NCBI GenBank assembly: GCA_031263025.1
Contig: JAISGO010000034.1
Coordinates: 1-47,842, forward strand
Reading direction: 5' to 3'
Length of the DNA: 47,842 nt
Origin: Coriobacteriales bacterium
GTDB lineage: Bacteria > Actinomycetota > Coriobacteriia > Coriobacteriales > UBA8131
The notes under the pieces: model-generated
The model's database searches: none
The model's input: only the letters and a program-made list of their open reading frames with translations
What the model was told of the DNA's origin: nothing
In this document: positions 4,971 through 25,385 of the stretch, one piece after another
Layout: each line of letters begins with the position of its first letter
How positions within the stretch are numbered: position 1 is the first letter of the stretch
Position numbers and translations under genes: made by a program

Positions 4971-5004
4971 AACTTTTCCTCCCTTATCGTTCAAGGGCAC
5001 ACCC

Positions 5005-5124
5005 CCATCCGGGGACACCTTAAATAGCCCATCTTAAGCCGCTCACGGGGACACCCTAAACAGCCTTGGGCTAGCTCACTCATAAGTAGGCGATAGCTGG
5101 GCTATTTAAGGTGTCCCCGGATGG
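5005..5124. repeat. 120-bp MITE-like element with 26-bp perfect inverted ends
   Basis: Ends CCATCCGGGGACACCTTAAA (5005 onward; arm to 5030) and its exact complement at 5099-5124, with a 68-bp spacer holding a third GGGGACAC copy (5046-5065). No coding capacity. It lies between the secreted-protein start and the MazF/DinJ-like module. The rest of 5125-5404 shows no gene I can support. Confidence 0.85.
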
Positions 5125-21174: not shown

Positions 21175-22230
21175 ATGTGTAAGGTTATCTTGATGGTCTC
21201 CGGCGGCGCCGATTCGGCTTTCCTCGCCCACTACCTCCCTGCCGCCGCGCCCGGCCTAGACTACCGGGTACTCCACGTCAACCACGGCTTACGCGGCCAG
21301 GCAAGCGAAGCCGACCAGGCTTTCGTGCTCAAGCTCTGCGCTGAGCTTAGTCTACCTTGCACCCTGCGCCGGGCTGATCTCACCGGCCAGGGCAACCTCG
21401 AACAAGCCGGCCGCCGCATTCGCTATGCTGCCGCCGTCGAATTGGCGGGCCCAGATGGCATGATTATCACCGCCCATACCCTAAACGACCGGGTCGAGAC
21501 TTTCCTTTCCCGGGTCATCCACGGAGCCGGCCTGGACACCTTGGTCGGCATGGGCTACGAGGGCTCAGTTGACGGGGTGCCCCTACTACGCCCCTTGCTC
21601 GGGCTCAGCCACCAAGAGATCACAGCCGAGCTCAGACGTAGGAAAATCCCTTGGCGGGAAGATCTTAGCAACAACGACACCCGTTATGACCGGGCCTTCA
21701 TCCGCCATCGCCTAATCCCTTTGCTCGAACAGCGCAACCCCGATTTCCTCCACACCTGTGCCCGTACCTTGAACGCCTTGGCCGCCGACAACGCCTACAT
21801 CGAACAGGCCACACCCGAGCCACTCTTCACCCGCTACCTGAAGAAAGCGACCCGGCAGGCGATGCTCGAGCTTGCTCCGGATGCCCGTCTCACTCAGCAA
21901 CACCTACAGGACATCACCGAGCATGCCCTCGACCCCGACTTCAGTGTCCATCTTCCCGGCGGGATCGAGATCCGCAACCACCAACACAAGCTCTTCTTCT
22001 GCAAAGCCAAGCCGCCCCGTAGGGCGCAGGTCAAAACCAAGGCGGCCTCCCCAAAAAAAGTCCAACCCCGCCGCAAGACCCCGGGCAAGGCTAAGCCTCG
22101 CCCCCAAAACGGGACCCTACACGATAAGGGCAAGCAGGCTTTTTGGGACATCTTGCTCGGCCCTGACGCACCTGCCCTGCTTGAAGAGCACAACCCCAAT
22201 CCGGCCTTAGACAAGGCAAAAACCCACTAG
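21175..22230 (+). CDS. tilS: tRNA(Ile)-lysidine synthase
   Basis: 351 residues. It ligates lysine to C34 of the CAU-anticodon tRNA-Ile using ATP. The PP-loop SGGADS (residues 9-14) and the downstream FLSRVIHGAGLDTLVGM and WREDLSNNDTRYDRAFIRHRL motifs are those of TilS. The C-terminal 80 residues are very basic (PRRAQVKTKAASPKKVQPRR) instead of the usual compact TilS C-domain and may bind RNA. Translation is coupled to the next gene, with TAG and GTG sharing one base at 22230. Confidence 0.88.
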   Translation: MCKVILMVSGGADSAFLAHYLPAAAPGLDYRVLHVNHGLRGQASEADQAFVLKLCAELSLPCTLRRADLTGQGNLEQAGRRIRYAAAVELAGPDGMIITAHTLNDRVETFLSRVIHGAGLDTLVGMGYEGSVDGVPLLRPLLGLSHQEITAELRRRKIPWREDLSNNDTRYDRAFIRHRLIPLLEQRNPDFLHTCARTLNALAADNAYIEQATPEPLFTRYLKKATRQAMLELAPDARLTQQHLQDITEHALDPDFSVHLPGGIEIRNHQHKLFFCKAKPPRRAQVKTKAASPKKVQPRRKTPGKAKPRPQNGTLHDKGKQAFWDILLGPDAPALLEEHNPNPALDKAKTH

Positions 22231-25200
22231 TGCGAGACCTGCTCGCCCGCACCCTCAGCGCCCGGGGCTATTCCACAAGGGCCGAGCAGGAGTCTTTCTT
22301 AAAGGCAAGCTTGGACGATACCTGGGGCGACCCGGCCCGCATCGCCGGGCTGCCCGAGATCGCCGAGCGTATCCGTCAGGCGGTCACCGCACAGACGAGG
22401 ATCCTGGTCTTCGGCGACTACGACGCCGACGGCGTGACCTCGACCGCTACCTTGCTGCTCGCTCTGCGCGAACTCGGCGCCAAGCTCTGTGAGCCCGCCT
22501 ACGTCATTCCCAACCGCCTCAGCCAGGGCTACAGCCTGACCGCCACCGTTATGCCTGAGATTTTAGCGGCCGCTCCCCAACTGATGATCACCGTGGACAA
22601 CGGCATCGCCGCCGGCCCGGAGATCGCAGAGCTTATGGCCCAGGGCATCGAGGTGCTGGTCTCAGACCACCATGAACGCCCCACCGCCCTGCCGGACTGC
22701 CTCTGGGCAGATCCCCGTTGCCAGGATGGCTCGCCCGACGGCGACCTGGCCGGGGTCGGGGTGGTCTTAAAACTCGTCCAGCTACTCCTGCCGGATGCTT
22801 GGCGACAGTTCACCGACCTGGCCGCGATCGGCACCGTCGGCGATGCCATGGATTTGTCCGGCCAGAACCGTGGCCTGGTCAAGGCCGGCCTGGGGCTGAT
22901 CACCGAGCGCCCCCGCCCGGCCCTGGCCGCCATCCTCGGCCAGGGCAAGTATGCCACCACGACCCCAACCGCACGCGACTTGGCCTTCAGCGTCTGTCCC
23001 CGCCTCAACGCCGCCGGGCGCATGGAGCACGCCCGGATCGCGCTCGAGACCTTGCTCGCCCCGGACGCCGCTAGCGCCGCGCCCTTAGTCGAGCGGCTCG
23101 AGGCCATCAACCAGCGGCGCCGCACTGGCACTGCCGCCATCGTCGAGGCCGCCCTGGCTATGGTGGAACAACAGATGGAGGGTCTGCCGTCCTCTCCGTC
23201 ATCCCCCGGCTTTTCCGGGGGATCCATTCCACCTCAGACTGTGGATTACCCGCATAAAGAGGGTAATGACGGGGACGATGGAGCGCCTAGTCCGTCCATC
23301 CCGCCGATCATCCTGGTCGGCGATGGCAGCTTCCAGCGCGGCCTACTCGGCCTGGCCGCTTCCAAGCTGGCCGAGACCTACCAGCGTCCTGCCATCGTCT
23401 ACACCGTGGAGGCAGGCGAACTCAACGCCTCCTGCAGGAGCGTCGGACGCGTCGACCTCTTCGCCCTGCTCGCGCAATGCCAGGAGCTCTTCAGCCGCTT
23501 CGGTGGCCACCCCATGGCCTGCGCTTTCACCATGGGCCTAGACGCCCTGCCCGCCCTGCGCGAGCGACTCGCCGAGCTCGGCGGCACAATCCCCGAGGCC
23601 GACTTCAAAGCGGCTGCAAGCTATGACCTTGATTTACAAGCCAGCTCCCTCACTGCCAAACAAGTCGATGACCTGGACGCGCTCGAGCCCTGCGGCAACG
23701 GCAACCCCCGCCCGCTCTACCGCTTCCCCGCCGCCCACCTCACGGACGTCCGCTGGGTCGGACAGGACAAGCAGCACCTTTCCTGCAAGGCTGACGGCGT
23801 CAAGGCAATCTACTTCAACGCCGATCAGAAGTCCGGCCTTTGGCAGGAGCCGATAGTCGACCTTTGCGCCGAGCTGGCCATCGACGAATTCCGCGGCCAC
23901 AAGCAAGTCCAGCTGATGGTCAAAGGGTTGGAATACCCCGAGTCTGGACTTGATTTTGCTAAAAAAGCGCTACAGGACAGCGGAGTCAAGTTGTTCGACG
24001 CCCAACGCCAGGCCCTGGCCGCGCTCTCCCACGGCGAGAACACCCTCGCCGTCCTGCCCACCGGGCGCGGCAAATCGCTCATCTTCCAGCTCTTCGCCGC
24101 CTACCTGGCCGAGCGCCGGGGGCAGGTCAGCATCTTCGTCTATCCCCTGCGCGCCCTGATCGCCGACCAGTACCTGGCCCTGCAGAAGCTGGGCCTGCGC
24201 GCCGAGCGGTTGACCGGTGAGAGCAGCCCGGCCGAGCGCGCCCGCGTCTATGCCGAGCTGCAAAACCCGAATACGAACGCAGGACATCCCCTCGCCGCCA
24301 TCCTCACCACTCCGGAGTTCCTCCAGTTCAATGCCGCAAAGCTGCTACCGGATGCGAGTGCTTGCGCCCGCATCGGCTTCATCGCCATCGACGAGGCCCA
24401 TCATCTGGCCGGCGCCAGCGAACAGCAGCGCCCGGCCTACCGGCACCTGGGCGAGATCCTGCACCCCTTCCAGGCTGCCACCATCCTGGCCTGTACCGCC
24501 ACCGCAGACGCAGCCGCAGCTGAGCAGATTGTTGGCGAGCTTGCGATCACCACCACGCTAAGCGATGACTTCCACCGCGACAACCTCGCCCTCGACGACG
24601 CCCGTGACCATGCCGAAGCGGAGCGTGACCAGATCATCGCCGAGTCTATCCGCCGGGGCGAGAAAGGCATCGTCTACGTCAATTCGCGCGGCTTCGCGGT
24701 CCTGCTCTGCAAGCGCCTGCGCAAGCTCTGCCCCGAGCAGGGCGAGCGCGTCGTCTTCTACCACGGTAAGCTCGACGCCGCGCAGCGCACGCGCGTAGCC
24801 GACGCTTTCCACTCTGGCGAGGCCCTTTGTGTGGTCGCCACCAGCGCCTTCGGCGAGGGCATGAACATCCCTGACGTCCGCCACGTCTTCCTCTATCACT
24901 TGCCTTTCTCCTTGATCGAGTTCAACCAGCTAGCCGGGCGGGCTGGCCGCGACGGCAAGCCGGCCACCGTCCATCTACTCTTCGGCGCGGACGACGTCGC
25001 GCTTAACCTCAAGCTGCTCGCCCAAAGCTCCCCGCCGCGCGAGCTGCTCGCCCAGACCTGGCGCGAGCTGGTCGAGGCCGGGCGCACGGCCAAAGCCGCC
25101 GGCCAGGACTGCTTCGCAGTCGACGCCGACCGCCAAGAGCAGAGCTGCCTCAAGGTCTTTGCCGAGCTCGGCCTACTTGAGGCTGGCGCGCAAAACGGCT

Positions 25201-25385
25201 CTGACCCGGCGACTTTCCAGATTCGCCTGCCCGAGAGCGTGCGCAAGGTCGACCTCGCCCAGAGCAGCCTACTTGCCGAGGGCGCCGCAGAGCGCGCCCG
25301 CTTCGAGGGCTTCAAGGACCTCGCCCTCTCTGCAGGCCCTGCCGCCCTACTCGCCAAGATTAACCGCGCCCTGCGCCCGAAATGA
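22230..25385 (+). CDS. RecJ exonuclease fused to a RecQ-like helicase
   Basis: 1051 residues from a GTG overlapping the tilS stop. Residues about 1-575 are RecJ: GDYDADGVTST, ITVDNGIAA, VSDHHE (the DHH), AGVGVV, LNAAGRM and DHHA1 FGGHPMACAFT are all intact, followed by an OB-like part. Residues about 585-930 are a superfamily 2 helicase: Walker A LPTGRGKS, DEAHHLA, ACTATA and QLAGRAGRDG, closest to RecQ. No RecQ zinc cysteines or HRDC domain are seen; the last 110 residues look winged-helix-like. RecJ and RecQ cooperate in recombinational repair, so the fusion would join unwinding and 5'-3' degradation. A palindromic repeat is inserted in frame at about residues 320-351. Confidence 0.9.
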   Translation: MRDLLARTLSARGYSTRAEQESFLKASLDDTWGDPARIAGLPEIAERIRQAVTAQTRILVFGDYDADGVTSTATLLLALRELGAKLCEPAYVIPNRLSQGYSLTATVMPEILAAAPQLMITVDNGIAAGPEIAELMAQGIEVLVSDHHERPTALPDCLWADPRCQDGSPDGDLAGVGVVLKLVQLLLPDAWRQFTDLAAIGTVGDAMDLSGQNRGLVKAGLGLITERPRPALAAILGQGKYATTTPTARDLAFSVCPRLNAAGRMEHARIALETLLAPDAASAAPLVERLEAINQRRRTGTAAIVEAALAMVEQQMEGLPSSPSSPGFSGGSIPPQTVDYPHKEGNDGDDGAPSPSIPPIILVGDGSFQRGLLGLAASKLAETYQRPAIVYTVEAGELNASCRSVGRVDLFALLAQCQELFSRFGGHPMACAFTMGLDALPALRERLAELGGTIPEADFKAAASYDLDLQASSLTAKQVDDLDALEPCGNGNPRPLYRFPAAHLTDVRWVGQDKQHLSCKADGVKAIYFNADQKSGLWQEPIVDLCAELAIDEFRGHKQVQLMVKGLEYPESGLDFAKKALQDSGVKLFDAQRQALAALSHGENTLAVLPTGRGKSLIFQLFAAYLAERRGQVSIFVYPLRALIADQYLALQKLGLRAERLTGESSPAERARVYAELQNPNTNAGHPLAAILTTPEFLQFNAAKLLPDASACARIGFIAIDEAHHLAGASEQQRPAYRHLGEILHPFQAATILACTATADAAAAEQIVGELAITTTLSDDFHRDNLALDDARDHAEAERDQIIAESIRRGEKGIVYVNSRGFAVLLCKRLRKLCPEQGERVVFYHGKLDAAQRTRVADAFHSGEALCVVATSAFGEGMNIPDVRHVFLYHLPFSLIEFNQLAGRAGRDGKPATVHLLFGADDVALNLKLLAQSSPPRELLAQTWRELVEAGRTAKAAGQDCFAVDADRQEQSCLKVFAELGLLEAGAQNGSDPATFQIRLPESVRKVDLAQSSLLAEGAAERARFEGFKDLALSAGPAALLAKINRALRPK
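23187..23281. repeat. 95-bp palindromic repeat inserted in frame within recJ
   Basis: Outer arms CCGTCCTCTCCGTCAT (23187-23202) and ATGACGGGGACGATGG (23266-23281) pair at 13 of 16. Inside lie CCCCCGG/CCGGGGG (23203-23221) and TACCC/GGGTA. The frame stays open, adding about 32 low-complexity Ser/Pro/Gly residues between the DHH and DHHA1 domains. Confidence 0.78.

Follow-up and report, generated by a model that had tools for sequence, protein, structure and literature searches.

What kind of palindromic sequence is read in frame within a recJ gene, and how did it come to be there? The gene lies in a stretch of 47,842 nt from a Coriobacteriales bacterium (contig JAISGO010000034.1), referred to here as the window. 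The original prediction was of a 95 bp palindromic repeat at 23187-23281. The features of the locus, in window coordinates, are as follows.

22230-25385, + strand: recJ-recQ fusion gene, 1051 aa, GTG start (from the open reading frame list and domain search)
23174-23192, + strand: candidate degenerate direct repeat, upstream copy (GATGGAGGGTCTGCCGTCC); weak, with a chance probability of about 1-4%
23197-23271: CGTC-type REP head-to-head dimer, 75 nt, from codon 323 position 2 to codon 348 position 1, with ends set by similarity to the copy on contig C22
23197-23226, - strand: left half, CGTC plus stem ATCCCCCGG/CCGGGGGAT, loop CTTTT and tail CCA (covariance model 49.4 bits, E 6e-12, not an independent score as both recJ halves were among the sequences used to build the model)
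23227-23241: 15-nt spacer, in which a small TCCAC/GTGGA stem is possible with adjoining bases
23242-23271, + strand: right half, of like design with another stem (heterodimer) and one mismatched pair (same covariance model, 46.2 bits, E 7e-11, likewise not independent)
23277-23297, + strand: candidate degenerate direct repeat, downstream copy (GATGGAGCGCCTAGTCCGTCC); weak, with a chance probability of about 1-4%

In the 1051-aa protein, Pfam domains were found for DHH (residues 57-202), DHHA1 (368-449), RecJ_OB (465-565), DEAD (591-763) and Helicase_C (806-909). As all of these are encoded by one open reading frame, the product is a RecJ-RecQ fusion and not RecJ alone. The placement of the repeat between the DHH and DHHA1 domains agrees with the Pfam coordinates.

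The palindrome itself is real. As a single strand, 23187-23281 folds at -25.1 kcal/mol relative to -14.0 +/- 2.5 for shuffled sequences (z = -4.4), and none of 200 shuffles folded as well. The 40-nt arms are 70% complementary and the inner 9-nt arms are perfect. However, the length of 95 bp could not be upheld. A second full copy in the same assembly, on contig C22, matches only bases 11-85 of this query and ends exactly at the CGTC tags found at each end (23197-23200 and 23268-23271), so the repeated unit is the 75 nt from 23197 to 23271. The 10 nt at either end of the 95 bp stretch are absent from the C22 copy and represent flank that pairs by chance. The unit reads CGTCATCCCCCGGCTTTTCCGGGGGATCCA, the 15-nt spacer, then TGGATTACCCGCATAAAGAGGGTAATGACG, and its design is that of two inverted 30-nt halves flanking the spacer. 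Each half is made up of a CGTC tag, a 9 bp stem, a 5-nt loop and a CCA tail, and the loop and tail are present in both. The core contains no stop in the frame used by recJ. Because 75 nt make 25 codons, it keeps the frame unaided, and the trimming or target duplication invoked on the grounds that the length was not a multiple of 3 is needless for the core.

By these sequence features, all of which match those of the superfamily, the recJ element is a CGTC-tagged REP dimer. CGTC REPs were defined by Di Nocera, De Gregorio and Rocco in 2013 (PMC3733652) as having a CGTC tag, an 8-9 bp stem beginning AT, a 4-5-nt loop and a CCA tail, and are usually found as head-to-head dimers.

The arms, which it had been proposed to seek elsewhere in the genome, recur. 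The assembly that includes the window is 1.39 Mb in 58 contigs and 89% complete, and copies in it were counted using covariance-model and pattern searches. Sequence search recovered the second full dimer (C22:17263-17347) and several half copies. A covariance model for the 30-nt half-unit gave 11 matches at E < 0.01, two of which are the recJ halves. Beyond recJ, half-unit sites are on contigs C5 (twice), C22 (the one dimer), C24, C26 and C1, with weaker ones on C42 and C11. Full head-to-head dimers were seen only in recJ and on C22, the remaining copies being single, and recJ is the only certain coding insertion. The 9 bp stem is kept by paired changes, with 97.8% of cells pairing and 0 of 500 shuffles as high (from five distinct sequences only), and it begins with A-T then T-A in all five of the distinct copies. 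Other repeats were also noted in the window. Near-identical, decayed CGTC-like repeats are found at 820-920 and 2370-2440, the former between apparent remnants of a TATCAAA... repeat, and another dispersed inverted repeat (GGGGACACCCTAAATAGCC / GGTGTCCCCGG) is found at 2440-2520 and 5000-5120.

The recJ site was compared using a protein search of 40 genomes, namely this one and 39 relatives. The matches in most relatives stop at about residue 314 and resume at about residue 360, and the two parts are often separated by only a few codons. An alignment was made of 30 homologous sequences, two of which share a contig (L028 and L044). L044, L045 and L046 come from Coriobacteriales/Coriobacteriia MAGs. 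In the 30 homologues the junction is uninterrupted and the linker is short; its length is constant apart from slight variation in two. Thus, the relatives do not share an equally long, non-palindromic linker. As the comparison contained no same-genus genome, the orthologues that show the empty site are all distant ones, with protein identities of about 28-39%.

Relative to the 30 homologues, the window protein is longer by 39 residues, not the approximately 32 predicted, and the added residues are rich in Ser, Pro, Gly and Asp, in line with the Ser/Pro/Gly-rich composition expected. This amounts to a net gain of about 117 nt, approximately 42 nt beyond the 75-nt core. The degenerate direct repeat listed above could be the source of part of this excess. 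However, a target-site duplication is weakly supported, as the score of the imperfect repeat was equalled by 36 of 5000 shuffles, at 201 of 9539 window positions and at 127 of 3005 positions in recJ. In an AlphaFold model of modest quality (mean pLDDT 65.7, four sequences), residues 280-317 form a helix, 319-357 a coil with pLDDT < 50 and 360-365 a strand. The match to a solved RecJ (5f54) is likewise interrupted, between residues 300 and 354. The insert is therefore predicted to be disordered and to lie between the long connecting helix and the first DHHA1 strand.

The CGTC family extends to related genomes. Among 33 genomes of the family, covariance-model matches numbered 14 in G008, 50 in G021 and 2 in G042; G001 and G002 each gave one weaker match. 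Full copies in G008 measure 81-84 nt and are arranged like the recJ core. In G021, copies are in frame in genes for RNase R (L151), an EamA transporter (L159), a DUF3866 protein (L192), HisG (L218) and an ABC ATPase (L217), although the repeat in HisG is so close to the N-terminus that the true start could be downstream of it. Two tandem copies in an open frame of 140 residues without a Pfam match (L216) are a tentative addition. The long open reading frames over seven other copies (L150, L155, L156, L162, L164, L174 and L183) were not counted as coding because none of these repeats seemed, as we read them, to be crossed by a recognised conserved gene. The inserted peptide is RHSGLVPESN in most of the G021 coding copies and VIPGLSRNL in one, indicating that more than one reading frame is used, and the recJ copy uses a third, unlike both. 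The RNase R of G003, from the same genus as G021, lacks the repeat; the length of the RNase R linker is variable among relatives. A DNA search of G021 recovered 72 copies and, with subtype and gene status assigned by eye, a location in a conserved gene was recorded for 3 of 7 copies with an ACG-type tail versus 0 of the 65 others (Fisher p ~6e-4). In addition, CGTC repeats in G021 (L162-L201) are followed by one of two recurrent longer tails, ACCGGGCGCGATAGCGACCGG... and GTCGCACGCGATAGCGGGCGACGC..., which suggests composite elements of > 80 nt.

We consider it highly probable (about 0.9) that a CGTC-tagged REP dimer was inserted into recJ in this lineage and is translated through, adding a disordered loop that is tolerated. 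A miniature element carrying no gene would have entered at the junction of the connecting helix and DHHA1, presumably moved by an enzyme acting in trans. Translation would then run through the stop-free 25 codons, and the flanking domains most likely tolerate the resulting 39-residue loop. The insertion was probably kept owing to its location in a tolerant loop, RecJ presumably still works and the loop would have no function of its own.

We note, however, that the DHHA1 motif shortly 3′ of the insert, near residues 367-373, reads FQRGL where WHEGV is conserved in the aligned relatives, and RecJ may therefore have been altered. Loss of the conserved W-H could indicate a recJ that is decaying, with the insert marking a nuclease that no longer works, and the TIGR00644 (recJ) score of 382.5 bits over residues 3-565 is slightly below the 396.9 cut-off. 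However, the frame of 1051 codons is unbroken across DHH, DHHA1, OB and helicase, and the motifs DYDADG, DHH and RFGGH are retained, making decay very unlikely. The same motif change, together with the recurrence of published REPs in replication and repair genes (PMC3733652), could instead point to an adaptive insertion, in which the loop, or a hairpin in RNA or DNA, changes RecJ activity or expression. A mutator effect of REPs in repair genes, one form this could take, is a speculation of Di Nocera et al. (PMC3733652). We regard an adaptive role as very unlikely, as the insert is predicted to be disordered, the inserts in G021 are in unrelated genes (for the transporter, HisG and DUF3866) and neither an Rfam RNA family nor a terminator-like site was found at the recJ insert site. 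Expansion of a non-mobile linker, palindromic by chance or through local slippage, would fit the Ser/Pro-rich flanks and the weak imperfect direct repeat around the core, but it is hardly credible given the fold statistics, and is refuted by the dispersed homologous copies with the same ends in this genome and its relatives.

If insertion of a mobile REP is accepted, the mobilising enzyme has to be considered. As in RAYT/TIRYT systems, this genome has two Y1_Tnp (PF01797) genes with inverted repeats of their own. The first (C26:2912-3235) is flanked by the 18-mer TATCAAATGAAACGTCCC, which belongs to a TIR family with 54 copies in the genome. The second (L124, C21:5873-6196) has its own terminal repeats, TGCCAAA...GGGGACAGG, that resemble the GGGGWSAS motif of published TIRYT genes (PMC3733652). 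However, neither set of repeats is of the CGTC type or borders the recJ copy, and no CGTC units were found at either PF01797 locus. A RAYT as dedicated mobiliser was rejected on this basis, and because none was found in the CGTC-rich genomes G008 and G021. CGTC repeats are nested between head-to-head copies of TATCAAATGAAACGTCCC at C22:17233-17377 and C26:42469-42550 (L256 and L259), and having 2 of about 9 CGTC sites inside such pairs has a chance of approximately 2e-5 by a simple binomial. These nested sites are a lead to the missing mobiliser, not a demonstration. That CGTC repeats, for which no transposase is known, are carried as TIRYT/RAYT cargo between inverted repeats, and that a coding-competent subtype has spread through the protein genes of G021, is a combination we consider doubtful.

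The novelty attributed to insertion into a repair gene does not hold, as many intragenic CGTC REPs are in replication and repair genes, including uvrA, uvrB, DNA polymerase I and recBCD (PMC3733652). As such insertions are already known from other phyla, the recJ case mainly widens the host range. CGTC palindromes that invade proteins now also have a host in a Gram-positive lineage not among the phyla of the 2013 survey, and a further lineage is added to those with such palindromes in several conserved genes. With it, the neutrality of in-frame spread can be examined, as can the identity of the enzyme that mobilises CGTC repeats, which has been an open matter since the superfamily received its name.

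Relative to the published CGTC REPs, the recJ element shares the tag, the 9 bp stem starting AT, the 5-nt loop, the CCA tail and the head-to-head heterodimer form, heterodimers being common in some families (PMC3733652). By stem and loop length, the nearest families are CGTC-3 and CGTC-4 (PMC3733652). Further likenesses are the presence of some copies within open reading frames, including those of repair genes, and the lack of any transposase gene flanked by CGTC units, which holds for the published units also (PMC3733652). The copies here are dispersed, and the head-to-head dimer usual among the published units is seen in the recJ and C22 copies, most of the others in this genome being single. 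The differences are that recJ is not mentioned in the main text of PMC3733652, and that the host belongs to the Actinobacteria, which are absent from the five phyla listed there. An earlier report of CGTC repeats in Actinobacteria was not found in the open-licence PubMed Central literature, though one elsewhere is possible. As for protein-coding palindromic insertions of the RPE type, the recJ copy is in frame, stop-free and in a conserved gene that is uninterrupted in relatives, although no NCBIfam RPE model was among the 25 listed matches to the RecJ-RecQ protein. The predicted resemblance to the Rickettsia elements (for which facts were drawn from PMC3733652 and PMC10969869) is borne out, as RPE-4 and RPE-6 of R. 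conorii are CGTC-4 and CGTC-1 REPs, respectively (PMC3733652), and the recJ element has the superfamily hallmarks. Both belong to the CGTC superfamily and are inserted in frame in protein genes, but they differ in host phylum and in that only one certain coding insertion is found in the genome studied here.
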